This document shows positions 989 through 34,133 of a stretch of 35,730 bases of DNA, in pieces (positions within the stretch are counted from its first letter, which is position 1; every line of letters starts with the position of its first letter). Source of the stretch: Betaproteobacteria bacterium (GTDB lineage: Bacteria; Pseudomonadota; Gammaproteobacteria; Burkholderiales; Burkholderiaceae_C); contig JANYKR010000079.1 of assembly GCA_025358155.1 (NCBI GenBank), positions 1 to 35,730 of the forward strand. Reading direction: 5' to 3'. The notes beneath the pieces are model-generated. The model made no database searches. It saw nothing but the letters and a program-made list of their open reading frames with translations, and was not told the DNA's origin. A program made the translations under genes and the position numbers.

Positions 989-1003
989 GCGACAGGTTGT
1001 CGC
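989..1003. promoter_or_regulatory. Dyad-symmetric operator-like site upstream of DUF3305
   Basis: GCGACAGGTTGTCGC is symmetric in its outer six base pairs (GCGACA / TGTCGC). The 14 bases at 990-1003 match 4863-4876, in front of the FDH operon, at 13 positions. It sits about 30 bp upstream of the DUF3305 start. If the TAGACT at 976-971 (minus strand) is a -10 box, the site would cover the -35 region. The repeat is seen directly; regulator binding is inferred. Confidence 0.6.
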
Positions 1004-1122
1004 AGCCGGCCCGCAGCGCGGCAAGCGAGGGTTTATCCGGATCAGGCGTGGACAGGCTGGCCACAGCGTTGGCCAATCGTCCTCAGGCCTTGTTCCCCAG
1101 GGCTGACCCAGCGGGCTCGACC

Positions 1123-3249
1123 TCAAGCCGCGCTGGCCGGCGCCGGCTCACACAGCAAGCGCACCGTCATGCAGGCACCAGGCCCTTCGGCAGTCGGCCG
1201 GTTGCTGGCCAGGATGTCGCCACCGTAGCGCTCGACGATGCCGCGGCTGATCCACAAGCCCAGGCCGGTACCCTCCTTCTTGCGGGTGACAAAGGGCTGG
1301 AAGAGCTCACGCAGCAGGTCCTCGCCCATGCCGGCGCCGGTGTCTTTGACCTCGATCTGCAGGCCGGGCTGGCCGCCGGGGGCGTCCCAATCGGCGGTGG
1401 ACAGCGCCAGCGTGCCACCGTGGGGCATGGCTTGCACGGCATTGACGATCAGGTTGACCAGCACCTGCTGCAGCTCTTGCCGGTTGATGCCGGCTTGGCG
1501 GGTGCCGCGAAAGTCGCGCAGCACCTGGATTCGGGTGTGGGCCAGCAGGTGGCCGGTGAGCACCAGACTGTCGTCCAGTGCCTGGCCGGCCGATACTGCC
1601 TCGATGTAGCCCGCAAATTCATTGGGCCGGGCAAACTGCAGCAGCTGGGTGACGATCAGCCGCATGCGCTCGATTTGCTGGTCGGCCAGCGCCAGCTCAG
1701 GCTTGACGCGCTGTGCATCGGCACCCAGCAGCTCACGCACCAGGTCCAGATTGCCCTGGATCACCGCGATCGGGTTGTTCACCTCGTGCGCGATGCTGGC
1801 GGTGAGCTGGCCGACGGCGGCCATTTTCTCGCTGCGCAGCAACTGGGCCTGGGCGGCTTCCAGGGCGGCGGTGCGGTTGGCCAGCGCCAGGGTGCGCTCG
1901 GCCACCTTGGCGTCGAGCTCGGCGTTCCAGCGTTGCAGCGCGGCGGTGTTGTCGGCGACGGTGTCGAGCAAGTGGTCGAGGTGGCCGGCGAGCGCGCCAA
2001 TCTCATCTTGGCTGGCGACTGGCCCGACCCGGGCGCCCAGAGCGCCGCCCTCGACTTGCCGCAGCGTGCGGTCCATTTGCTCGATCGGCTGGAAGATGGC
2101 GCGAGCCCGGCGCGCCGACCACAGCGCAGCGACGATCATCACCGCAAAAAACACCGCACCAATGCCGGCCAGCACGCCGTACTTCATCAGCGTGAAGGGC
2201 CGCTCCAGGTAGCCTACGTAGAGCATGCCGACCCGCTGGCCGGTCGCGTCGCTGAGCGGTTGGTAGGCCGAGACGTACCAGTCGCTGACCACAAAGGCCC
2301 GGTCCAGCCAGGTGTTGCCCTGGCCCAGCACCGCCTCGCGCACCGTCGCCGATACCCTCGTGCCGATGGCGCGTTGCTCTCCGCTGCCGGCCCCCGCCGC
2401 GCCGTCGAACAGCCGCACGTTGGTGGAAATGCGCACATCGTCCAAAAACAAGGTGGCCGTGCCCTGGCTGCCAAAGGGCAACGCGCCCTCGGGGTAGACG
2501 ATGTGGTTGATGTGGTCGATGAACGGCAGGTTGTGGTTGAGCAGCACACCCGCCTGGACCCAGGCCAGCAAGCGGCCGTCGACCGAGCGCACCGGCGCCA
2601 TGGCCCGCACCACCATCGCCCGGTCCTCCTGACGACGGCTGCTGGGCTGGGCTTGCTGGGTGGCCACCAGCGGCACGGCCACGCGCTGGCGCAGCGCCGG
2701 CGACAACAATCCCTGGGCGGCAGGCAGCAAAACGGCAACAGCAGCGCTGGGGCGACTGGCCGATCCGCCATTGACTTGCGGCGGCGGCGCTGAGTTGTCA
2801 CCAGGGGCAAGGTCACCCTCACTGACACCGTCAAAGTCGGCCAACAACAATCGGCCGTCGGGCGCTCGCAGGTTGATGAAATCGAGCCCCTCACGGTCTT
2901 TGACCTGACCCAGCAGCCGCTGCAAGGCTGCGCGGTCAGCGAGAGTTGGCTCGCTGGCGGTTGCAGCAGACCGGGCTGCCAGCGCTGCATACAGAGCTTG
3001 TGAGTCCGCCACTGCGCCGGTGCTGGCCGCCACCTCGCCCAGCACCCGGTCAAAGTAGCCGTGCGCCACCGCCAGGTCAGAGCGCACCTTGGTGATCAAC
3101 AGCCGGTCCAGCGCGGCATTGCCCCAGACCAGCAACACCAGGCCCAGCAACGGCAGCACGCCCACCAAGGGCAGCAGCACCATCGCCAGCAACTTGCGGC
3201 GGACCGGCCAGGCAGCGAAATGGCTGAGGCCGGGCCAGCGCAGCGTCAC
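1123..3249 (-). CDS. Sensor histidine kinase (NtrB/DctB type), FDH-linked
   Basis: I chose the GTG at 3249, which overlaps the stop of the response regulator (GTGA); the frame runs further upstream but only inside that gene. The protein is 708 residues. It has a basic N-terminus, TM1 about 22-42, a large periplasmic region about 43-355 that looks like a Cache-type sensor, TM2 about 356-378, HAMP about 380-432 and a coiled coil to about 475. The HisKA phospho-acceptor is His488 in SIAHEVNNP. The ATPase domain has an N box (N599, N603), DTGAGMG (636-642) and GTGLGL (660-665). It should autophosphorylate and pass phosphate to the upstream regulator. The signal is unknown; formate or a related small acid is plausible from context only. 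Confidence 0.9.
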   Translation of the reverse strand: MTLRWPGLSHFAAWPVRRKLLAMVLLPLVGVLPLLGLVLLVWGNAALDRLLITKVRSDLAVAHGYFDRVLGEVAASTGAVADSQALYAALAARSAATASEPTLADRAALQRLLGQVKDREGLDFINLRAPDGRLLLADFDGVSEGDLAPGDNSAPPPQVNGGSASRPSAAVAVLLPAAQGLLSPALRQRVAVPLVATQQAQPSSRRQEDRAMVVRAMAPVRSVDGRLLAWVQAGVLLNHNLPFIDHINHIVYPEGALPFGSQGTATLFLDDVRISTNVRLFDGAAGAGSGEQRAIGTRVSATVREAVLGQGNTWLDRAFVVSDWYVSAYQPLSDATGQRVGMLYVGYLERPFTLMKYGVLAGIGAVFFAVMIVAALWSARRARAIFQPIEQMDRTLRQVEGGALGARVGPVASQDEIGALAGHLDHLLDTVADNTAALQRWNAELDAKVAERTLALANRTAALEAAQAQLLRSEKMAAVGQLTASIAHEVNNPIAVIQGNLDLVRELLGADAQRVKPELALADQQIERMRLIVTQLLQFARPNEFAGYIEAVSAGQALDDSLVLTGHLLAHTRIQVLRDFRGTRQAGINRQELQQVLVNLIVNAVQAMPHGGTLALSTADWDAPGGQPGLQIEVKDTGAGMGEDLLRELFQPFVTRKKEGTGLGLWISRGIVERYGGDILASNRPTAEGPGACMTVRLLCEPAPASAA

Positions 3250-4700
3250 GGCGCCAGCGCCCAGTCGGCCACGCGGCGCTCCAGCGTGCGGCGTGAGATA
3301 CCCAGCAACTGGGCAGCCCGGGTCTTGTCGCCGGCCACGCCGGCCAGCACGGCCTGGATGTGTTGTTTCTCCAACGTCAACAAGTCGGTGGTGGCGCTGG
3401 GCTGGGCCTGCAGGCGCGGGTTCAAGCCTGCCGACCACGGGCTGCCAGTGCGGTCCATTTGCCGGTTCAAGCCCTGGTACAGCGCCGAGACATTGAGCGC
3501 CCCCAGGATCAGTGAGCGCTCGATCAGGTTGCGCAGCTCGCGCACATTGCCCGGCCAGTCGTACTGCTGCAGGTAGCCCAGTTCGTCATCGCTGACGGCG
3601 ATGGGCGGCACGCCCAGTTGCGGCGCGAGGCTGTCGATGAAGTGGGCCACCAGCGCGGCCATGTCCTCCTTGTGCGCGCGCAGCGGCGGCAGGTTGATCT
3701 CGACCACCTGCAGCCGGTAGTACAAATCCTTGCGAAAGCGCCCTGCCGCCACCTCGTCGGCCAGCCGGCGGTGGGTGGCGGCAACGATGCGCACATCCAC
3801 CGGGATTTGTTGCTCACTGCCGACCGGGCGGATGCGGCGGTCCTCCAGCACCCGCAACAAGGTGGCTTGCTGTGGCAGCGGCAGCTCGCCAATCTCGTCC
3901 AGAAACAGCGTGCCGCCTTGGGCATACACAAACAAGCCGTCGCGACCCGGCCGGCGTGCTGGCAGCCCGTCCCGGTCGCCGCCCTGGGCTTGGCCAAACA
4001 GCTCTGCATCGATCAGCTCGGGCAGCAAGGTCGCGCAGTTGACCGGGACAAAAGGCCCGGCCGCGCGCGCGCTGTTGTGGTGCAGCGCCAGCGCCGCCAG
4101 CTCCTTGCCGGTGCCCGACTCGCCGCTCAGCAGCACCGTGCTGTCGACCGCTGCCACCCGCTGCAGTGCCGCCTGCAAGCCCTTGATGGCGAGCGAGCCG
4201 CCCACCAGCCCGTCGGCGCAAGGCGTGCGCTGCAACAGCGCGCGCCGCAGCACCCAGTTTTCACGCCGCAAGAGCGCCCGCTCCAGGCCCTGCCGCACGG
4301 CGTTGAGCACCTGCGTCACCCGGAACGGCTTGAGCAAAAAGTCGCTGGCACCGGCGCGCAAGGCCTCGATCGCGGTCTCCAGGTCGGCAAAGGCGGTGAT
4401 CAGCACCACCTCGCCGGCAAAACCGCGCCCGCGCAAGTCGCGCAGCCAGGCGATGCCGCTTTGGCCCGGCAGGCTGACGTCCAGCACGATCAGGTCAAAC
4501 CGGTGGCGCCGCACCAACTCATCCGCCAACTCGGCAGACGCTGCAACCTGCACGCTGCCCACCCGCGTGGCCAAGGTCTTGGCCAGGAAGTTGCACATCC
4601 CCGGCTCGTCGTCCACCACCAGCACGGCAGCGAGCGGCCAGCGCTCGGGCGGGTTGGGGTTGGCTGGCGCCGGCGGGGTAAGCGCGGTGGGGGCAGGCAT
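3246..4700 (-). CDS. NtrC-family response regulator without GAFTGA motif
   Basis: The protein is 484 residues in three domains. The receiver has acidic residues at 30-31, phospho-acceptor Asp74, Thr102 and Lys124. The AAA+ domain has Walker A GESGTGKE at 193-200 and Walker B TLFLDE at 264-269. The C-terminal Fis-type helix-turn-helix is at about 440-480 (GDKTRAAQLLGISRRTLERR). At the position of the sigma-54 contact loop it reads GGDRDG (about 240-245), not GAFTGA. Known GAFTGA-less members such as TyrR and Rhodobacter capsulatus NtrC act at sigma-70 promoters, so I infer sigma-54-independent control here. It forms an operon with the kinase (GTGA overlap) and is divergent from the FDH operon, its likely target. 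The 14-residue start to the Pro-rich leader is plausible; a later start is possible. Confidence 0.92.
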   Translation of the reverse strand: MPAPTALTPPAPANPNPPERWPLAAVLVVDDEPGMCNFLAKTLATRVGSVQVAASAELADELVRRHRFDLIVLDVSLPGQSGIAWLRDLRGRGFAGEVVLITAFADLETAIEALRAGASDFLLKPFRVTQVLNAVRQGLERALLRRENWVLRRALLQRTPCADGLVGGSLAIKGLQAALQRVAAVDSTVLLSGESGTGKELAALALHHNSARAAGPFVPVNCATLLPELIDAELFGQAQGGDRDGLPARRPGRDGLFVYAQGGTLFLDEIGELPLPQQATLLRVLEDRRIRPVGSEQQIPVDVRIVAATHRRLADEVAAGRFRKDLYYRLQVVEINLPPLRAHKEDMAALVAHFIDSLAPQLGVPPIAVSDDELGYLQQYDWPGNVRELRNLIERSLILGALNVSALYQGLNRQMDRTGSPWSAGLNPRLQAQPSATTDLLTLEKQHIQAVLAGVAGDKTRAAQLLGISRRTLERRVADWALAP

Positions 4701-4731
4701 GACTTAAAAATTGGGCGGCAAAGTTGCCTGG

Positions 4732-4737
4732 ATTGTA
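4732..4737 (-). promoter_or_regulatory. Possible -10 box for the regulator-kinase operon
   Basis: Read on the minus strand this is TACAAT, five of six matches to the sigma-70 -10 consensus, 32 bp upstream of the regulator ATG. No good -35 box lies 16-18 bp further upstream. It could therefore need an activator or be a chance match. Confidence 0.3.
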
Positions 4738-4841
4738 GGAATGCCGGAGCCAGAGCGTCCGATGCGCCGGGGGTGTTCTCAGCGCCCAGCGTCGCCTGTG
4801 CGTTGGGTCACCCATGTTCGCGGCCGCCGCACCTTGGTTCT

Positions 4842-4876
4842 GACAGCTTGTCTGACGCGTCACGACAAGTTGTCGC
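4842..4876. promoter_or_regulatory. Paired operator-like sites upstream of the FDH operon
   Basis: There are two dyads: GACAGCTTGTC at 4842-4852 and CGACAAGTTGTCG at 4863-4875. Their centres are 22 bp apart, close to two helical turns, so dimers bound to both would lie on the same DNA face. Measured from the predicted start of transcription near 4935, the centres fall at about -88 and -66, typical for upstream activator binding. The second site recurs at 990-1003. The divergent NtrC-like regulator is the obvious candidate ligand (inference). Confidence 0.6.
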
Positions 4877-4899: not shown

Positions 4900-4928
4900 T
4901 TGCCATCGGGTAAACGCTGAGCGCTAAT
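4900..4928 (+). promoter_or_regulatory. Predicted sigma-70-type promoter of the FDH operon
   Basis: A TTGCCA (-35, five of six matches) at 4900-4905 is followed after 17 bp by GCTAAT (-10, four of six matches) at 4923-4928, placing transcription start near 4935. I looked for a -24/-12 sigma-54 element with GG-N10-GC spacing in the promoter-proximal part and found none convincing. This fits a regulator lacking GAFTGA. Confidence 0.45.
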
Positions 4929-4981: not shown

Positions 4982-5194
4982 ATGAGCAAGTCTGAATCCA
5001 CCCCCCTGTCACGCCGCCGGCTGTTTGCTGGCGCCGGCACCGCCGGTGCGCTGGCGGCCGCTGCCGCCGTGTTGCCGTTGCAGCGCGAGGCCGCGCCGGT
5101 GGCGGCGCCGACGCCCAAGCCCGCACCTGAGGCGGGTGGCGGTTACCAGCTCAGCGCCCATGTTCAGCGCTACTACCAGACCGCCAAGGTCTGA
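4982..5194 (+). CDS. Small Tat-signal protein, first gene of FDH operon
   Basis: This 70-residue protein carries a twin-arginine motif, SRRRLFAGAG, at about residues 9-18. A hydrophobic Ala-rich segment, a Pro/Ala linker and a short conserved-looking C-terminus (YQLSAHVQRYYQTAKV) follow. The ATG at 4982 has AGGAG five bases upstream; an in-frame start further upstream lacks this. It lies 15 bp before the catalytic subunit gene. Proteins like this head many proteobacterial FDH operons and are often labelled only as formate dehydrogenase. Its function is not known to me. The mature part after signal removal would be only about 35-40 residues, so it may instead remain membrane-anchored and help assembly (inference). 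Confidence 0.8.
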   Translation: MSKSESTPLSRRRLFAGAGTAGALAAAAAVLPLQREAAPVAAPTPKPAPEAGGGYQLSAHVQRYYQTAKV

Positions 5195-5209: not shown

Positions 5210-8209
5210 ATGTTGCTGACACGCAAGTCCGGACCTTCCAGCGCCTCTGGCATGGCCCACTCCGGCCGAGTCGCCTCTGGCTTGGTCAACAGCCTGTCGC
5301 GCGGCATGGCGCGCGCCATCCCGACGATGGACCGGCGTGCCTTTTTGCGCCGCTCCGGCCTCGGCGTGGGCGCCGGCATCGCGGCCTCTCAGCTGCTGCT
5401 GGTCAAGAAGGTGCAGGCGGCTGACCCCGGCAAGGCTGCGTCTGGCGCAGCCAAGACCGTGGTGGTCAAGCGCACGGTCTGCGGCCACTGCTCGGTGGGT
5501 TGTGCGGTTGATGCCGTGGTCGAAAACGGTGTCTGGGTGCGCCAGGAGCCGGTGTTCGACTCGCCCATCAACCTGGGCGCGCACTGTGCCAAGGGTGCTG
5601 CGCTGCGTGAGCACGGCCACGGCGAGTACCGCCTCAAGTACCCGATGAAGCTGGTGGACGGCAAGTACCAGCGCATCGGCTGGGACCAGGCGCTCAACGA
5701 GATCAGCGCCAGGATGCTGGACTTGCGCAAGCAGAGCGGGCCCGACTCGATCTTTGTGGTCGGGTCGAGCAAGCACAACAACGAGCAGGCCTACCTGCTG
5801 CGCAAATGGATCAGCTTCTGGGGCAGCAACAACACCGACCACCAGGCGCGCATCTGCCACTCCACCACGGTGGCCGGCGTGGCCAATACCTGGGGGTATG
5901 GCGCGATGACCAACTCCTACAACGACATGCAGAACAGCAAGGCTGCGCTCTACATCGGCAGCAATGCCGCTGAGGCGCATCCGGTGTCGATGCTGCACCT
6001 GCTGCACGCCAAGGAGAACGGCTGCAAGGTCATCGTGGTCGACCCCCGCTTTACCCGCACCGCCGCCAAGGCGGATGACTTCGTGCGTATCCGCTCAGGC
6101 TCGGACATCCCGTTCCTGTTCGGCGTGATGCACCACATCTTCAAGAACGGCTGGGAAGACAAGCAGTACCTGGAAGACCGGGTCTACGGCATGGCCAAGG
6201 TGCGCGAGGAGTGCCTCACCAAATGGACCCCCGACGCGGTTCTGGAGGCCTGCGGGGTTGACGAGGCCACCTGCTACAAAGTGGCCAAGACCATGGCCGA
6301 CAACCGCCCCAGCACCATCGTCTGGTGCATGGGCCAGACCCAGCACACCATCGGCAATGCCATCGTGCGGGCATCCTGCCTACTGCAGCTGGCGCTGGGC
6401 AATGTGGGCAAGTCGGGCGGTGGCACCAACATCTTCCGCGGCCACGACAACGTGCAAGGCGCCACCGACGTCGGCCCCAACCCCGACAGCTTGCCCGGCT
6501 ACTACGGCCTGGTCGAGGGCTCGTGGAAACACTTTGCCAAGGCCTGGGGCGTTGACTTCGAGTGGATCAAGAAGCAGTACGCGCCGGGCATGATGACCAA
6601 GCCCGGCATGACCGTGTCGCGCTGGATCGACGGCGTGCTCGAGAAGAACGAGCTGATCGACCAGGACAGCAACCTGCGCGGCCTGTTCTTCTGGGGCCAT
6701 GCACCCAACTCACAGACCCGTGGTCTGGAGATGAAAAAGGCGATGGACAAGCTCGACCTGCTGGTCGTGATCGATCCGTTCCCGTCAGCCACCGCCGCGA
6801 TGGCGGCCATGCCCGGCAACCCCGACGACCAGAACAAGAACCGGGCGGTCTACCTGCTGCCGGCCTGCACCCAGTTCGAGAACGCCGGTTCTGTCACCGC
6901 ATCCAACCGGTCGATTCAGTGGCGCGAACAGGTCATCGAGCCGCTCTGGGAGTCGCGCACCGACCACATGATCATGTACCAGCTGGCCCAAAAGCTCGGC
7001 TTCGACAAGGAACTGGTCAAGAACTACAAGATGGTCGCGGGCAAGGGTGGGATGATGGAACCCGAGGTCGAGTCGATCCTGCGCGAAATCAACCGGAGTG
7101 TCTGGACCGTCGGCTACACCGGCCACAGCCCCGAGCGGCTCAAGGCCCACATGCGCAACATGAATGTCTTTGACGTCAAGACGCTCAAGGCCAAGGGTGG
7201 TATTGACAAAGAGACGGGTTACAGCCTGGACGGCGACTACTTCGGCCTGCCCTGGCCCTGTTACGGCACACCGGAGCTGAAACACCCGGGCACGCCCAAC
7301 CTCTACGACACCAGCAAGCATGTGATGGACGGCGGCGGCAACTTCCGCGCCAACTTCGGGGTCGAGCGGGAGGGGGTTTCGCTGCTCGCGGGCGATGGCT
7401 CGCACAGCCTGGGCGCTGACCTGACCACCGGTTACCCTGAGTTCGACCATTTGTTGCTCAAGAAACTGGGCTGGTGGGGTGACCTGACCGAGGCCGAGCA
7501 GAAGGCCGCCGACGGCAAGAACTGGAAGACCGACAGCTCCGGCGGCATCATCCGCGTGGCCATGAAGGTGCACGGCTGCCACCCGTTTGGCAATGCCAAG
7601 GCACGCGCCGTGGTCTGGAACTTCCCCGACCCCATCCCGCAGCACCGCGAGCCGCTCTACAGCACCCGGGCCGACCTGGTCGCAAAGTACCCGACCCATG
7701 AGGACAAAAAGTCGTTCTGGCGCCTGCCCACGCTGTTCAAGAGCGTGCAGGAGAAAAACAAGGACATCGGCAAGACCTTCCCGCTGATCATGTCCAGCGG
7801 CCGTCTGGTCGAGTACGAGGGCGGCGGCGAAGAAACCCGGTCCAACCCCTGGCTGGCCGAGTTGCAGCAAGAGATGTTTGTCGAGATCAACCCCAAAGCC
7901 GCCAACGATCGGGGCATCCGCAACGGCGAGGATGTCTGGCTCAGGACGCCGCCGATGGTAGGTGTGCCCGGCTTCAAGGGCATCAAGGTCAAGGCCATGG
8001 TGACCGAGCGGGTAGACGCCGAGACCGTCTGGCTGCCGTTCCACTTCTCGGGTCGCCTGGGCGGCGTGGACCTGGCGCCCTACTACCCGGCCGGCGCGAT
8101 GCCGGTGATCCGCGGCGAGTCGGTCAACACCGCCACCACCTACGGTTACGACAGTGTGACGATGATGCAAGAGTCGAAAACGACGGTTTGCCAGATTGAA
8201 CGCGTCTGA
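5210..8209 (+). CDS. fdhA: Formate dehydrogenase catalytic (alpha) subunit
   Basis: This 999-residue molybdopterin oxidoreductase oxidises formate to CO2 at a bis-MGD Mo/W centre. A Tat motif (DRRAFLRRSG, about 41-50) follows an unusually long n-region of 40 residues, so it should be exported folded with its beta partner. The N-terminal [4Fe-4S] site is Cys91, Cys94, Cys98, Cys126. The metal-ligand residue is Cys216 in RICHSTT (codon TGC at 5855), where E. coli FdnG has selenocysteine. The His after it is the expected catalytic partner. The C-terminal molybdopterin dinucleotide-binding domain occupies about the last 130 residues. The start has CGGAG seven bases upstream. The gene lies in a tightly spaced operon with the beta subunit and small accessory genes. 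Confidence 0.96.
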   Translation: MLLTRKSGPSSASGMAHSGRVASGLVNSLSRGMARAIPTMDRRAFLRRSGLGVGAGIAASQLLLVKKVQAADPGKAASGAAKTVVVKRTVCGHCSVGCAVDAVVENGVWVRQEPVFDSPINLGAHCAKGAALREHGHGEYRLKYPMKLVDGKYQRIGWDQALNEISARMLDLRKQSGPDSIFVVGSSKHNNEQAYLLRKWISFWGSNNTDHQARICHSTTVAGVANTWGYGAMTNSYNDMQNSKAALYIGSNAAEAHPVSMLHLLHAKENGCKVIVVDPRFTRTAAKADDFVRIRSGSDIPFLFGVMHHIFKNGWEDKQYLEDRVYGMAKVREECLTKWTPDAVLEACGVDEATCYKVAKTMADNRPSTIVWCMGQTQHTIGNAIVRASCLLQLALGNVGKSGGGTNIFRGHDNVQGATDVGPNPDSLPGYYGLVEGSWKHFAKAWGVDFEWIKKQYAPGMMTKPGMTVSRWIDGVLEKNELIDQDSNLRGLFFWGHAPNSQTRGLEMKKAMDKLDLLVVIDPFPSATAAMAAMPGNPDDQNKNRAVYLLPACTQFENAGSVTASNRSIQWREQVIEPLWESRTDHMIMYQLAQKLGFDKELVKNYKMVAGKGGMMEPEVESILREINRSVWTVGYTGHSPERLKAHMRNMNVFDVKTLKAKGGIDKETGYSLDGDYFGLPWPCYGTPELKHPGTPNLYDTSKHVMDGGGNFRANFGVEREGVSLLAGDGSHSLGADLTTGYPEFDHLLLKKLGWWGDLTEAEQKAADGKNWKTDSSGGIIRVAMKVHGCHPFGNAKARAVVWNFPDPIPQHREPLYSTRADLVAKYPTHEDKKSFWRLPTLFKSVQEKNKDIGKTFPLIMSSGRLVEYEGGGEETRSNPWLAELQQEMFVEINPKAANDRGIRNGEDVWLRTPPMVGVPGFKGIKVKAMVTERVDAETVWLPFHFSGRLGGVDLAPYYPAGAMPVIRGESVNTATTYGYDSVTMMQESKTTVCQIERV

Positions 8210-8233: not shown

Positions 8234-8857
8234 ATGGCCCGCATGAAATTTATCTGCGACAGCGAGCGTTGCATCGAATGCAACGGTTGCGTCACCGCCT
8301 GCAAGGCTGAGCACGACGTGCCCTGGGGCGTCAACCGGCGACGGGTTGTGACCCTGAACGACGGTATTGCCGGCGAAAAAAGCATCTCGGTGGCCTGCAT
8401 GCACTGCAGCGATGCACCGTGCATGGCCGTCTGCCCGGTCGACTGCTTTTACCGCACCGACGAAGGCGTGGTGCTGCACGACAAGGACGTCTGCATCGGC
8501 TGCGGCTACTGCAGCTATGCCTGCCCGTTTGGTGCGCCGCAGTTCCCGACCAATGGCACTTTTGGCCTGCGCGGCAAGATGGACAAATGCACCTTCTGCG
8601 CCGGAGGCCCCGAGGCCAACGGCAGCGACGCCGAGTTCGAGAAATACGGCCGCAACCGGCTGGGCGAGGGCAAACTGCCGGCTTGCGCCGAGATGTGCTC
8701 GACCAAGGCCTTGCTGGGTGGCGATGGCGACGTGGTGGCCGATATCTTCCGTACCCGTGTGCTGACCCGCGGCAAGGGCAGTGAGGTCTGGGGCTGGGGT
8801 ACGGCCTATGGCAAGCCTGCAGGCGGCCAACCCAAGACCGAGGCAGGCAAGTCATGA
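8234..8857 (+). CDS. fdhB: Formate dehydrogenase iron-sulfur (beta) subunit
   Basis: This 207-residue ferredoxin-like subunit relays electrons from the catalytic subunit to the cytochrome b subunit. Sixteen cysteines are arranged for four [4Fe-4S] clusters: C13/C16/C19/C23, C55/C58/C63/C67, C87/C90/C93/C97 and C119/C122/C151/C155. It has no signal peptide, so export with the Tat-bearing alpha subunit is expected. Unlike E. coli FdnH/FdoH (about 300 residues) it has no C-terminal transmembrane anchor and resembles the shorter FDH3-type beta subunits. It lies 24 bp after fdhA, and its stop overlaps the start of the small lipoprotein gene (ATGA). Confidence 0.95.
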   Translation: MARMKFICDSERCIECNGCVTACKAEHDVPWGVNRRRVVTLNDGIAGEKSISVACMHCSDAPCMAVCPVDCFYRTDEGVVLHDKDVCIGCGYCSYACPFGAPQFPTNGTFGLRGKMDKCTFCAGGPEANGSDAEFEKYGRNRLGEGKLPACAEMCSTKALLGGDGDVVADIFRTRVLTRGKGSEVWGWGTAYGKPAGGQPKTEAGKS

Positions 8858-9084
8858 CACGACCGATCTGGAGTCTCGCGCTGGCCACTCTGCTGCTGGG
8901 CGCCTGCGGCGAAAAGCCGCAAACCGCAGCAACCCACAAGTCCGACGGCAAACCCTGGGAGAGCGCCAAGACGGCCTACACCGCTGCCGGCTGGACTGCG
9001 GGCGACAAGACCGCCTGGGAGCAGCAACTGCGCCTGCGCTCGCAAGGTCAGAACGAGTACAGCCGCGCACCGGCCAAGCCCTGA
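8854..9084 (+). CDS. Small FDH-operon lipoprotein
   Basis: This 76-residue protein has a short signal and a lipobox LLGAC with Cys18 as the lipidation site. The mature region of about 59 residues is hydrophilic and contains two WES/WEQ-like tryptophan patches (GKPWESAK, KTAWEQQLR). It overlaps the fdhB stop by four bases, so it is coupled to FDH production. I know of no assigned function. A periplasmic or membrane-anchored role in holding or assembling the complex is inference from position. The lack of a C-terminal anchor on the beta subunit makes such a tether worth considering. Confidence 0.75.
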   Translation: MTRPIWSLALATLLLGACGEKPQTAATHKSDGKPWESAKTAYTAAGWTAGDKTAWEQQLRLRSQGQNEYSRAPAKP

Positions 9085-9118
9085 ACGCACGCCAGCACCG
9101 CAGCGGCAAGGAGAGGTG

Positions 9119-10306
9119 ATGCAACCCCTGAATCAAAAATGGCTGTTCCCGGCCTTGCTGGCGGCAGGCTTGCTGGCGGCTGCAGTGCCAGCGCGGGCCC
9201 AAACCGCAGCGCCAGCGGTGAGCCCGGCAGCCACAGCGCAAGCCACGGCGGAGCCCTCAGCCGGCCAGGCGCCACCCGCAGGATTTTCGGCGCCCGCCGA
9301 CCCTAAACCGGATGATTCCAACGCTGCCCGCGCCAAGTCGCAGCCGGGCAACAACGCGCCGTTTTGGCGTGCCGTGCGTGAGTCCGGCAAACAAGAGGGC
9401 ACGGTCAACCTGCCGGGCCTTGAAAAAGGTGTGCTGGTGCAGCCGTTTGTGCAGTACCCGGGCTCGCGCTTTACCAATGCCGGCGAGGCCTGGCGCCAGG
9501 TTCGCAACCAATGGATCATTCCGTACGGCGGCTCGTTGCTGTTGATCGTGGCGCTGGCGCTGGCACTGTTTTATTGGCGCAAAGGTGCGCTCGGTGGCCA
9601 CCTCGCCGACACCGGCCGGGTGATCGAGCGGTTCACGCCTTTCGAACGGGCAGCCCACTGGAGCAACGCGATCGCGTTTTGCGTGTTGGCCCTCTCCGGG
9701 CTGGTGATGGCGTTTGGCAAATTTGTGCTGCTGCCGGTTTTCGGTGGCACCTTGTTCGGTGGCCTGACCTACGCGCTCAAGACCGCGCACAACTTTGCAG
9801 GCCCGCTGTTTGTCGTGTCGCTGGTGATCGTGTTCATCACCTTCGTGCGCGACAACTTGCCGAGCAAAGGCGATCTGGTCTGGCTGCTGCGCGGCGGCGG
9901 CTTGTTCGGCGACCGGGAAGTGCCCTCGCACAGGTTCAACGCTGGTGAAAAGATCATGTTCTGGGGCGGCATCTTCACCCTCGGTCTGGTGGTGGTGGCG
10001 TCGGGCCTCGTGCTCGACAAGCTGGTTCCCGGCATGGCTTACAGCCGGGGCGACATGCAGGTGGCGCAGATGGTGCATGCGGTCGCCACTGTCTTGATGA
10101 TGGCCATGTTTGCCGGGCACATCTACTTGGGGACGGTCGGCATGCGCGGCGCGTACCAGGGCATGCGCAGCGGCTATGTCGATGAAGCCTGGGCCAAGGA
10201 GCACCACGAACTGTGGTACGACGACATCAAGGCCGGCAAGATCCCGGCCCAGCGCTCTCCTGAACCAGCACCTGGCGTGCTGGCCGCGCCAGGGCAGGTT
10301 GCCTGA
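9119..10306 (+). CDS. fdhC: Formate dehydrogenase cytochrome b (gamma) subunit
   Basis: This 395-residue membrane subunit takes electrons to the quinone pool. After a cleavable-looking signal (to about residue 28) comes a long Ala/Pro-rich and charged periplasmic extension to about 130, then TM1 (about 134-152) and three further helices with likely haem ligands His180, His224, His320 and His334. The core resembles E. coli FdoI (about 211 residues); the 130-residue N-terminal addition is typical of the longer proteobacterial form. I chose the ATG at 9119 because AAGGAG lies five bases before it; the GTG at 9116 is the alternative. The C-terminal tail is cytoplasmic and Pro/Ala-rich. Confidence 0.93.
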   Translation: MQPLNQKWLFPALLAAGLLAAAVPARAQTAAPAVSPAATAQATAEPSAGQAPPAGFSAPADPKPDDSNAARAKSQPGNNAPFWRAVRESGKQEGTVNLPGLEKGVLVQPFVQYPGSRFTNAGEAWRQVRNQWIIPYGGSLLLIVALALALFYWRKGALGGHLADTGRVIERFTPFERAAHWSNAIAFCVLALSGLVMAFGKFVLLPVFGGTLFGGLTYALKTAHNFAGPLFVVSLVIVFITFVRDNLPSKGDLVWLLRGGGLFGDREVPSHRFNAGEKIMFWGGIFTLGLVVVASGLVLDKLVPGMAYSRGDMQVAQMVHAVATVLMMAMFAGHIYLGTVGMRGAYQGMRSGYVDEAWAKEHHELWYDDIKAGKIPAQRSPEPAPGVLAAPGQVA

Positions 10307-10769: not shown

Positions 10770-10870
10770 GGCGCACGCCAGTCATCGTCCGGCTGGGCAC
10801 ACTGCCCCTCCGGCTGGCCGCCCACCTGCGACACCCTGCCAACTTGTGCCCCGTCTGCACCTCCCCCGCC

Positions 10871-11782
10871 ATGCTGCCCGAGCCTGCTGCGCCATTGGCT
10901 TTCGACGTGCCCCGCTCTCCGCAACCCGTGGCGGGCGCGCCGCGCTTGACCGCAGCCTGCGGCGAATTGCTGCGCGAAATCACCGTACTGGACGAGTACG
11001 GCGACCGCCGCAGCATCCACATTCCTGCTGAGCGGCCGCTGACGGTGTTTGTGGACCGGCGCGAGCTGGTGACGCTGATGACCCTGGGCGCCTCGCCCGA
11101 GTTGTTAGTGCTGGGCTACCTGTGCAACCAACGCCTGGTGGACGCGGTGCACGAGATTGAATCGATTACCGTCGACTGGGACGTGGGCGCCGCCGCCGTC
11201 AAGACCCGGTCCGGCATCACCGACCTGGCTGGCAAGACCGCGCGCCGGGTGGTGACCACCGGTTGCGGCCAGGGCACGGTGTTTGGTGATCTGATGGCGC
11301 AACTCGATACGGTGCAGCTGCCTGACGCCAGCGCTGCACGCATCCGCCAAGGCACGCTGCATGCCCTGCTCGAGCAGATGCGCCAGCGCAACAGCATCCA
11401 CCGCAAAGCGGGCTCGGTGCACGGCTGCGCACTGTTCCAGGGCACCGAATTGCTGATGTTTGTCGAGGATGTGGGCCGCCACAACGCCATCGACACCATC
11501 GCTGGCTGGATGGCGCTGCACGCTGTGACCGGCGCTGACAAGGTTTTTTACACCACCGGCCGGTTGACCAGCGAGATGGTCATGAAATCAGCGCAGATGG
11601 GCGTGCCGATCATCGTGTCACGCAACGGGGTCACTGCGATGGGCCACGGCCTGGCCGAACAGTTGGGCATGACGCTGTTTGGCCGCGCGGCCAACCGCCA
11701 CTTCCTGTGCTACACCGGTTTTGATCGCTTTGACTCCGAGCCCGAACCGCAGCGTGCAGCGGTTCGGGTGGTTGTCGGCTAG
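10871..11782 (+). CDS. fdhD: FdhD sulfurtransferase for formate dehydrogenase
   Basis: FdhD passes sulfur from a cysteine desulfurase to the Mo-bis-MGD cofactor, which active FDH needs. This protein is about 303 residues with family motifs RPLTVFVDR, SPELLVLGYL, KAGSVHGCA, VEDVGRHNAIDTIAG, TTGRLTSEMV and SRNGVTAMG. The loop that carries C121-x-x-C124 in E. coli reads TTGCGQGTVF here, keeping Cys132 but with Gly135 in place of the second Cys. I start at the ATG (10871); a TTG at 10844 is in frame and neither has a clear ribosome site. It follows the small exported protein by about 100 bp and probably ends the FDH operon. Confidence 0.92.
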   Translation: MLPEPAAPLAFDVPRSPQPVAGAPRLTAACGELLREITVLDEYGDRRSIHIPAERPLTVFVDRRELVTLMTLGASPELLVLGYLCNQRLVDAVHEIESITVDWDVGAAAVKTRSGITDLAGKTARRVVTTGCGQGTVFGDLMAQLDTVQLPDASAARIRQGTLHALLEQMRQRNSIHRKAGSVHGCALFQGTELLMFVEDVGRHNAIDTIAGWMALHAVTGADKVFYTTGRLTSEMVMKSAQMGVPIIVSRNGVTAMGHGLAEQLGMTLFGRAANRHFLCYTGFDRFDSEPEPQRAAVRVVVG

Positions 11783-11833: not shown

Positions 11834-12712
11834 GTGAATCTACTCAACGCTGACCTGCACTGCCACTCCCGTTTTTCAGACGGCACACTCAGCCCAACCG
11901 AATTGGCCGAACGCGCCAGCGCGCAGGGTGTGGCCTTGTGGGCCCTGACCGACCACGATGAGATCCGGGGTCTGGCCGAGGCCGCCGCTGCCGCCCAGAC
12001 GCTGGGCATGGGCTTTGTCAACGGCGTCGAGATCTCGGTCACCTTTGCCGGCGAAACCGTGCACATCGTCGGCCTTGGGTTTGATGCCACCGATGCCGGC
12101 TTGCAAGCCGGGCTGGCCCACACCCGGGGCGGCCGACTGGCGCGCGCCCAAGGTATGGCTGACGGTCTGGCCAAAGTTGGCCTGCCCGGCGCGCTGGAGG
12201 GCGCGTTGCGCTATGTCAGCAACCCAGACCTGGTGTCGCGCACTCACTTTGCCCGCTGGCTCGTCGAGACCGGCGTCTGCAGCGATACCGGTGCGGTGTT
12301 TCGCCGCTACCTGACCGACGGCAAACCCGGCTTTGTGCCGCACCGTTGGGCCGGCCTGGGCGACGCAGTGGCCTGGATCACCCGGGCTGGCGGTGTGGCA
12401 GTGATCGCCCATCCGGGGCGCTACAGGTTTTCAGTCAACGAAGAATTTGCGCTGTTCTCCGAGTTCAAGGCCCACGGCGGCCAGGGGGTTGAGGTGTTGA
12501 CCGGCAGCCATGGCCCGGCCGACACCGCCAAATACAGCGAGATGGCGCTGGAGTTCGGCCTGTTGGCCTCACGCGGCAGCGACTTCCACTCGCCCAGCGA
12601 GAGCCGCATCGAGTTGGGCAGCCTGCCCGATCTGTCCGCCACACTGACGCCGGTCTGGCAGGCGCTCAAATGGCGTGCGCCGCAACAGCGCTTGACCCCG
12701 TTCAGCGCTTGA
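11834..12712 (+). CDS. PHP-family RNase AM / nucleotide phosphatase (TrpH/YciV-like)
   Basis: This 292-residue protein has the metal-binding PHP signatures: DLHCHSRFSDG near the start, TDHDEIRG, NGVEIS, HIVGLGFD, the later VIAHPGRY and GSDFHSPSE. E. coli YciV (RNase AM) of this family is a 5'-to-3' exonuclease that trims 5' ends of rRNA and acts on 3',5'-bisphosphonucleotides. The start is GTG with no clear Shine-Dalgarno sequence. The following gene encodes a YciO-type protein, the same neighbour as in E. coli, which supports the assignment. The 3' end, including the stop codon, lies inside a 17-bp tandem repeat. Confidence 0.9.
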   Translation: MNLLNADLHCHSRFSDGTLSPTELAERASAQGVALWALTDHDEIRGLAEAAAAAQTLGMGFVNGVEISVTFAGETVHIVGLGFDATDAGLQAGLAHTRGGRLARAQGMADGLAKVGLPGALEGALRYVSNPDLVSRTHFARWLVETGVCSDTGAVFRRYLTDGKPGFVPHRWAGLGDAVAWITRAGGVAVIAHPGRYRFSVNEEFALFSEFKAHGGQGVEVLTGSHGPADTAKYSEMALEFGLLASRGSDFHSPSESRIELGSLPDLSATLTPVWQALKWRAPQQRLTPFSA

Positions 12713-12750
12713 CCCCGTTCAGCGCTTGACGCCGTTCAGCGCTTGACGCC
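12687..12750 (+). repeat. 17-bp tandem repeat across the PHP gene stop
   Basis: The unit AGCGCTTGACCCCGTTC occurs at 12687-12703 and 12704-12720. It occurs again with one change (GACG for GACC) at 12721-12737, followed by a 13-base partial copy sharing that change (12738-12750). The unit is not a multiple of three. The stop TGA of the PHP gene at 12710-12712 falls in copy 2, and the remaining copies are non-coding. Confidence 0.9.
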
Positions 12751-33505: not shown

Positions 33506-33593
33506 TTTGAAAGCTGGGTCTTGGCAGATGCCGCCAGACCCAGCCCCGGCAATCGCGCTTTGCAGCGCCTGCCTTTCTTACACAGGAGACACC

Positions 33594-34133
33594 TTGTCCT
33601 CCCTGCTGCAACTGTCCCGCTTGATCGACTGGATCAGCGACAGGTTTGGATTCATCGCCAAATGGGCGATCTTCCTGGCCTGCCTCATCAGTGCCACCAA
33701 TGCGGTGGTGCGCTACATGGCCAATTACAGCTCCAACGCTTTCCTTGAGATCCAGTGGTATCTGTTTGGGGCGGCCGTGATGCTGGGCGCATCCCATGTG
33801 CTGCGGGTCAATGAGCACATCCGGGTCGACGTCCTGTACAGCCGCTACTCGGGGCGCACTCAGGCCCTGGTCGATCTGGCCGGCCTGCTGTTTTTCATGT
33901 TGCCGTCGATGGCGGTGATGATCAACTTTGCCTGGCCGCTGTTTGTCAAGATGTACCTCAGCGGCGAGGTATCTCAAAACGCTGGCGGCTTGATCCGTTG
34001 GCCTGCAATGCTGCTATTGCCCTTGGGCTTCGGGCTGTTGTTTGCACAAGGTGTGTCGGAGATCATCAAACGGGTGGCCTGGCTGACCAACCAGTACGAC
34101 GGTGAATTTCACTACGAGAAGCCGCTGCAATGA
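33594..34133 (+). CDS. TRAP transporter small membrane subunit (DctQ-like)
   Basis: This is a 179-residue four-helix inner-membrane protein of the DctQ family: AKWAIFLACLISATNAVVRY, EIQWYLFGAAVMLGASHVLRVNEHIRVDVLY and later helices. DctQ-type subunits hold the large permease and help dock the binding protein. I choose the TTG at 33594 because AGGAG lies five bases before it; the longer frame upstream runs through non-protein-like sequence. The gene ends in an ATGA overlap with the large subunit gene, so the two are coupled. No periplasmic DctP gene is inside the window; it may lie off the right edge or elsewhere. Confidence 0.9.
   Translation: MSSLLQLSRLIDWISDRFGFIAKWAIFLACLISATNAVVRYMANYSSNAFLEIQWYLFGAAVMLGASHVLRVNEHIRVDVLYSRYSGRTQALVDLAGLLFFMLPSMAVMINFAWPLFVKMYLSGEVSQNAGGLIRWPAMLLLPLGFGLLFAQGVSEIIKRVAWLTNQYDGEFHYEKPLQ

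Follow-up and report, generated by a model that had tools for sequence, protein, structure and literature searches.

Regulators that lack the GAFTGA loop and act on sigma70 promoters include the NtrC proteins of Rhodobacter capsulatus and Caulobacter and VspR of Vibrio cholerae, according to an excerpt of PMC10274813. Formate sensing offers a second point of reference: in the chemoreceptor PacF, residues R142, T145 and T158, named in an excerpt of PMC12501870 that cites the PacF work, have the same spacing as a pattern found in the sensor structure 8py0. Here we analyze a 35,730-nt stretch from a Betaproteobacteria bacterium (GCA_025358155.1, contig JANYKR010000079.1, positions 1–35,730; hereafter the window), in which an NtrC-type response regulator (RR, window positions 3246–4700) and its sensor histidine kinase stand between a formate dehydrogenase (FDH) operon, whose FDH type we call FDH3, and a DUF3305 gene, with a short inverted repeat (dyad) upstream of each. 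We put at roughly 85% the probability that these dyads form the operator of the adjacent two-component regulator, through which a formate-sensing kinase would lead to sigma70-dependent activation of fdh.

A first-pass annotation of the same DNA had placed a 14-bp dyad, with one difference, at 4863–4876 and 990–1003, and a related GACA-N3-TGTC site 22 bp from the first, at 4842–4852. All three sites lie where it put them, upstream of the FDH operon and of DUF3305 and flanking the regulator/kinase pair, as it had also described. CGACAGGTTGTCGC (990–1003) and CGACAAGTTGTCGC (4863–4876) differ at a single position. CGACARGTTGTCGC occurs twice in the window against 0.00 expected, and GACA-N3-TGTC four times against 0.45 expected; neither count was reached in any of 100 shuffles. 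The fourth GACA-N3-TGTC (33588–33598) is distant from the FDH genes and lies shortly after an IMPDH/GMP-reductase-type gene.

The evidence that carries the assignment is the co-occurrence of motif and regulator across 120 sampled genomes from the window's family, drawn evenly with nearly one per genus; the statistics ignore kinship. Besides the window's RR, this sample holds 26 RR orthologs in 25 other genomes (62–82% identity, E 7e-167 or better), set apart by a gap from the next matches (1.8e-90, ≤46% identity), and all 26 loci were fetched and read. FDH3-type FdhA is present in 61 of the 120 genomes, 22 with the RR (RR+) and 39 without it (RR−), and the fdhA upstream region was readable in 21 and 38 of these, respectively. 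These FDH3 counts omit G101 (contig edge), G041 (200 bp upstream only) and G511 (unreadable), take in one G052 copy but not the second (65% identity), and include among the 38 RR− genomes one locus, L095, with only ∼308 bp upstream.

The check proposed in the first-pass annotation, a search for the motif before orthologous FDH operons, found GACA-N3-TGTC within 800 bp upstream of fdhA in 21/21 readable RR+ genomes versus 1/38 readable RR− genomes (Fisher p = 4e-15). Twenty of the 21 have a motif-bearing FDH3 beside the RR; the remaining genome is G058. Seen from the regulator, the motif is upstream of the RR in 25 of the 26 ortholog loci, mostly as GCGACANNNTGTCGC. The exception, L047, belongs to G058, where the RR has no FDH beside it and FDH3, ∼209 kb off, carries two sites. 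At L040, L044, L055 and L056 the motif accompanies an RR beside another FDH, ∼30% identical to FdhA. Genome G075 has two RR orthologs, that of L055 by the FDH just mentioned and that of L041 by other genes, with a dyad at each.

A wider set of 104 RR loci (80 named, being those most similar to the window RR among the matches listed, and 24 unnamed) was scored within 1.6 kb upstream of the RR; 5 of its 55 FDH-adjacent loci come from family-sample genomes. Among the matches listed, the motif was found at 66 of 104 loci. The 55 loci where an FDH begins no more than 1.6 kb upstream account for 52 of these, and the 49 others, some of which are truncated by contig ends, for 14. A search for FDH3 covered 18 genomes with 19 RR loci, 16 of these without the motif, and recovered FDH3 in 14 genomes. 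Where the RR locus lacks a dyad and FDH3 is not adjacent, the dyad stands at FDH3 in 11 of 12 readable genomes (G058 included). In five of the 11 (G514, G515, G523, G524 and G525) the fetched stretches overlap, which puts FDH3 within some kilobases of the RR; in the other six, the RR and FDH3 stretches do not overlap. G527 and G528 have a dyad at the RR and none at FDH3 (0/2). Divergent from the RR in G528 (L155) stand a NuoF-like subunit and an MFS transporter from the oxalate/formate-antiporter superfamily, for which a lactate transporter model scored best, though below its cut-off; at the dyad-less L152, an FDH alpha subunit and a NuoF-like subunit take these places. The dyad thus tends to follow the RR, near and far, to what is presumably its target, and very probably it is the operator of the neighboring RR.

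The consensus over 71 loci reads (T/C)GCGACAAnTTGTCGC(A/G). The search pattern fixes the GACA and TGTC arms; the unfixed positions around them still reach 1.1–1.7 bits, and the flanks ≤0.5 bits. Where a second exact dyad lies less than 70 bp away, 10 of 21 pairs are spaced 21–23 bp apart, and the rest 31–35, 44–46, 13, 15 or 66 bp. Where only one exact dyad is present (75 loci), the following 60 nt hold a near-copy (≤3 mismatches) in 36 cases, and in 32 of the 36 at a distance of 21–24 nt, a clustering that mononucleotide shuffles match in ∼1%. Since this spacing is conserved across loci, the window site at 4842–4852 belongs to a conserved tandem arrangement. Apart from L056, whose frame is shifted, all clade rows have SRRTLERR or SKRTLERR as their recognition helix, and the outgroup rows that could be read have a SRKTLERK-like one. 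At least one GGACA arm is present in 12 of the 13 outgroup loci where the motif matched, which is suggestive of covariation between recognition helix and operator arms. The RR frame of L056 leaves the helix-turn-helix (HTH) and continues into other sequence, as after a frameshift.

The core of the motif is not rare: across the window's genome, CGACANNNTGTCG matches 33 times versus 23 for the reversed control, and the evidence therefore lies in position and conservation, not in rarity. The 15-mer GCGACANNNTGTCGC gives 88 matches versus 73 for its reversed control, summed over 26 RR+ genomes, and 3 versus 2 in the window's genome; G091 (11 versus 4) and G082 (7 versus 2) stand out. A genome-wide regulon was rejected on these near-background counts. 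No conserved third target was found among the six CGACANNNTGTCG sites read of the 31 outside the window, a search that was not exhaustive; all six overlap long open frames (flgD-, flgK- and ParB-like ones among them, by eye), with no FDH genes shown. In a same-genus genome, GCGACAACTTGTCGC stands close to where a CHASE/PAS-domain sensor gene begins (L242, around 1501; G011 C4:365287).

In the window RR, the receiver, AAA+ and Fis-type HTH domains are all present (PF00072, PF00158 and PF02954) and the ATPase motifs GESGTGKE and GGTLFLDE are kept, but GAFTGA is replaced, with ELFGQAQGGDRDGLPARRPGRDGLF in its place. All 31 outgroup rows of a 120-row RR tree keep GAFTGA or a close form, and the tree requires at least 12 loop-state changes, at least six of them on well-supported branches (GAFPGA-type forms scored as lost). 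GAFTGA was thus lost repeatedly within this ortholog family. Six twice-fetched genomes (L146, L157, L174, L188, L206 and L210) were left out of both promoter and tree counts; the tree further omits L213, L140, L141, L056 and L127.

Promoters were classed with the familiar sigma54 and sigma70 consensus sequences. Among 66 dyad-bearing FDH3 upstream regions, 17 are sigma70-like, 35 sigma54-like, 14 neither and none both. The sigma70-like pattern, TTGnnn-N17/18-nn(T/C)AAT with its −35 element 23–25 nt after the dyad, has a shuffle rate of 0.0005; 16 of the 17 loci that carry it, window included, have a lost loop and one has GAFPGA. The sigma54-like match has a shuffle rate of 0.10, and 21 of its 35 loci have an intact or near loop; its −24 element is 97–99 nt after the dyad in 13 loci and 165–166 nt in four. 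Further sigma70-like matches in lost-loop loci lie at 45–46 nt (four, two turns further) and 36 nt (two), and intact-loop loci have single ones at 17, 28 and 67 nt. In the window, the sequence pattern TTGCCA-N17-GCTAAT (4900–4928) places the dyad center ∼65 nt before the likely start, a usual place for a sigma70 activator, and no sigma54-like match scoring ≥9 was found downstream of the dyad. Lost and intact loops differ in their promoter type (Fisher p = 5e-4), and sigma70-like and sigma54-like promoters are mutually exclusive (p = 1e-7), in both cases with related rows counted repeatedly. Loss of rpoN was rejected as the cause of the promoter change, as rpoN is present in 26/26 RR+ genomes searched.

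The signal is suggested by the kinase. Its sensor part matches sCache_3_3 at 5.8e-26, and the only confident PDB sequence matches are 8py0 and 8py1, chemoreceptor sensor domains crystallized with formate (by their entry titles). The single protein finds them at 0.0006 and 0.073, and a 45-row profile finds both at 0.0001–0.0002 and nothing else up to 0.1. The match spans ∼70 residues near the sensor end, where Arg273, Thr276 and Thr297, invariant in 45/45 aligned kinases, align with the Arg-x-x-Thr ... Thr of 8py0 (spacing 3 and 13). With a Cache domain, sequence kinship and putative Arg/Thr/Thr ligand residues all present, formate is the likely signal, which we regard as a strong inference.

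Upstream of DUF3305, the window, L035, L143 and L145 have the dyad at −40 from the start codon, followed by TAGACT; L147 has it at −46. It occurs within 400 bp in 9 of the 12 loci with a readable DUF3305 upstream region; among these, L146 is the same genome as L035, and the dyads of L156 and L159 are ones shared with FDH3. Of 18 other upstream regions from RR+ genomes (L101–L118), only L113 and L114 have a dyad nearby, and the dyad of L099 is common to FDH3. Because its presence at DUF3305 is this patchy among RR+ genomes, DUF3305 control would be a trait of some lineages. Close relatives keep both sites of the FDH region, which fits a small local regulon; the first-pass annotation's suggestion of the operator of such a regulon gains support from this, from the co-occurrence with the RR and from the near-background genome-wide counts.

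Taken together, the proposed mechanism would run as follows. The periplasmic sCache_3 sensor most likely binds formate, and the kinase, judging from the domains, would phosphorylate the RR, whose dimers are predicted to occupy tandem pairs of GCGACAAnTTGTCGC-type dyads set two helical turns from each other, as conservation and co-occurrence suggest. In the window lineage, the bound RR may help sigma70 RNA polymerase at TTGCCA-N17-GCTAAT, with the dyad near −65, and so turn on the FDH operon, and the site at 989–1003 would put DUF3305/DUF3306 under the same control. Operator binding, activation and formate sensing by the RR/kinase pair are predictions from sequence. The system is best seen as a two-component regulon linked to formate, known in its general kind, whose regulator probably left sigma54 in some lineages with the operator kept. 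We give even odds to the fuller evolutionary account, in which the sigma54 loop was lost repeatedly with the operator kept, the window-lineage promoter was rebuilt as sigma70 at a fixed, helically phased distance, and loci with a changed loop and a sigma54-like promoter are living intermediates.

Several observations weigh against the proposed mechanism. One RR− genome carries the motif (L096); three closely interrelated outgroup loci (L120, L122 and L123) have FDH beside the RR and no exact dyad; 35 of the 104 RR loci, among the matches listed, have neither FDH nor dyad within 1.6 kb; in G518, an RR+ genome, neither of two FDH3 copies has a dyad; and the RR is present with no FDH3 match at the cut-off in 4 of the 18 genomes searched. 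GGACA arms also occur in the main clade (e.g. L143 and L144), and the helix/operator covariation is therefore only suggestive. On the promoter side, 14 lost-loop FDH3 loci keep a sigma54-like promoter, nine lost-loop and five intact or near-loop loci have neither type, and loop classes were assigned by pattern, with near forms (e.g. GAFPGA) grouped with intact loops in the promoter counts and with lost ones in the tree analyses. When loop loss and promoter type were compared with correction for the tree, on 5 pairs only, the result was not significant; for this reason, and because related rows were counted repeatedly, we keep the link as a lead only. TM-scores to 8py0 and 8py1 are low (0.25–0.28 by query length, 0.52–0.58 by target), and in the Foldseek ranking several Cache-type sensors other than these two come before or between them, so that the fold alone cannot single out formate.

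A sigma54-like promoter persists despite a lost loop at 14 loci: L043, L054, L057, L059, L181, L189, L195, L197, L198, L200, L201, L204, L205 and L208; their replacement loops are mostly of the same length as GAFTGA (e.g. SAVKGA and PGSHGS).

The alternative that survives best, though unlikely, is repression: in the window lineage the RR would bind the dyads and, without GAFTGA, block polymerase, most plainly at DUF3305. Caulobacter NtrC, which lacks GAFTGA, has both activated and repressed genes in the excerpt of PMC10274813. Repression would also suit the dyad overlying the −35 place at DUF3305, and sigma54 activation is unlikely without GAFTGA. However, the fdh dyads lie wholly upstream of −35, at 23–25 nt in 17 loci, where activators usually sit, and relatives carry the same dyad before sigma54-like promoters, a type that needs an activator. 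It is less probable still that the window-lineage system has stayed sigma54-based, with the altered loop standing in for GAFTGA; rpoN in all 26 RR+ genomes searched and the 14 lost-loop loci speak for it, whereas the window dyad has no sigma54-like match ≥9 downstream and shares its sigma70-like promoter geometry with other loci. Ownership of the dyad by another regulator (global anaerobic, molybdate- or formate-responsive), with the RR a mere neighbor, draws on dyad–RR binding being a prediction and is very improbable: the dyad tracks the RR ortholog even with FDH3 elsewhere, is nearly absent from the same operon in family members without the RR, and is found with the RR beside FDHs of other types and beside the MFS/NuoF-like operon of L155. 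That the dyad is a chance palindrome, repeat element or hairpin is hardly credible, CGACANNNTGTCG being only modestly above its genome-wide control but the same place being kept in 71 loci while flanks vary, with co-occurrence at p = 4e-15 and no Rfam match in the window. An RNA element was likewise rejected, the Rfam search of the window being empty at gathering scores.

The features of the window are listed below. Its operon is of the FDH3 type by its beta subunit. A Pfam search matched no family to the small open reading frame (ORF) at 8854–9083, and downstream of fdhD lies a 17-bp tandem repeat, CAGCGCTTGACCCCGTT (3.6 copies, 12686–12747). The candidate −10 element of DUF3305 was judged against the usual −10 consensus.

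Table 1. Predicted regulatory sites and genes of the window, with positions counted from its first nucleotide.
Feature	Position	Strand	Remarks
Main operator dyad CGACAAGTTGTCGC	4863–4876		Upstream of FDH operon; predicted operator
Second dyad GACAGCTTGTC	4842–4852		22 bp center to center from 4864–4874
Dyad GCGACAGGTTGTCGC (CGACAGGTTGTCGC at 990–1003)	989–1003		Before DUF3305; would overlie −35 place
Sigma70-like −35 TTGCCA, FDH operon	4900–4905	+	25 nt past dyad, N17 to −10
Sigma70-like −10 GCTAAT, FDH operon	4923–4928	+	Geometry shared by 16 other FDH3 loci (23–25 nt, N17 or N18)
Candidate −10 TAGACT, DUF3305	971–976	−	By eye; same place in L035, L143, L145, L147
NtrC-type RR: receiver, AAA+, Fis-type HTH	3246–4700	−	Receiver Asp74 and Walker-type motifs kept; no GAFTGA
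Sensor histidine kinase: sCache_3 sensor, HAMP, HisKA, HATPase	1123–3249	−	Domain matches
Kinase sensor part, residues 33–365	2155–3153	−	Modelled, mean pLDDT (predicted local distance difference test) 90.6; sequence match to formate-bound 8py0, 8py1
DUF3305	482–961	−	PF11749
DUF3306, continues beyond window edge	1–497	−	PF11748
Formate dehydrogenase region TAT protein, first gene of operon	4982–5194	+	TIGR02811, 40.8 bits, below cut-off 48.45
FdhA, molybdopterin formate dehydrogenase alpha subunit	5210–8209	+	Best model TIGR01591, below its cut-off
FdhB, FDH3 beta subunit	8234–8857	+	NF038355, 334.4 bits versus cut-off 240
Small lipoprotein-like (by eye) ORF between fdhB and fdhC	8854–9083	+	In relatives at 39–63% identity
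FdhC, cytochrome b subunit	9116–10306	+	TIGR01583, above cut-off
FdhD	10844–11782	+	PF02634

Beyond the first-pass annotation, the analysis adds the absence of GAFTGA, the conserved 22-bp tandem and the sensor's likeness to formate-binding domains. A probable operator, regulator and signal are thereby named for an FDH common in Burkholderiales (61/120 family genomes). Our searches of the open-licence literature, a scope outside which most subscription journals fall, showed no described FDH3 regulator; with these three components named, formate control in Burkholderiales becomes directly testable. Relatives with and without GAFTGA on one operator open the change from sigma54 to sigma70 activation to stepwise study.

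Compared with described systems, the window RR shares with the GAFTGA-less regulators of the PMC10274813 excerpt an NtrC-type architecture without the loop and, by sequence pattern, a sigma70-like target promoter; those regulators, compared by description and not by sequence, serve other pathways and use other operators. In the RR family, by contrast, the loss recurs within one ortholog family, the operator is kept and some members retain GAFTGA. Escherichia coli FhlA, set against the window RR through an NCBIfam scan alone, is likewise an AAA+ protein in formate-linked control of formate dehydrogenase, but the excerpt of PMC11291172 assigns putative formate binding to its own N-terminal domain, whereas in the window system a separate membrane kinase would sense. 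The formate chemoreceptors PacF, McpF and Atu0526, as described in excerpts of PMC12501870 and PMC8698456, have a Cache_3-type sensor, as does the window kinase, and the Arg/Thr/Thr spacing of PacF is that of the kinase's 8py0-aligned pattern (PMC12501870); these are chemotaxis receptors and the window protein a histidine kinase, and the sequence alignment covered 8py0 and 8py1 only. Like the NtrC/AtoC-type sigma54 enhancer-binding proteins, the window RR combines receiver, AAA+ and Fis-type HTH domains with tandem upstream dyads, and it differs from them in the absence of GAFTGA and in its sigma70-like promoter.

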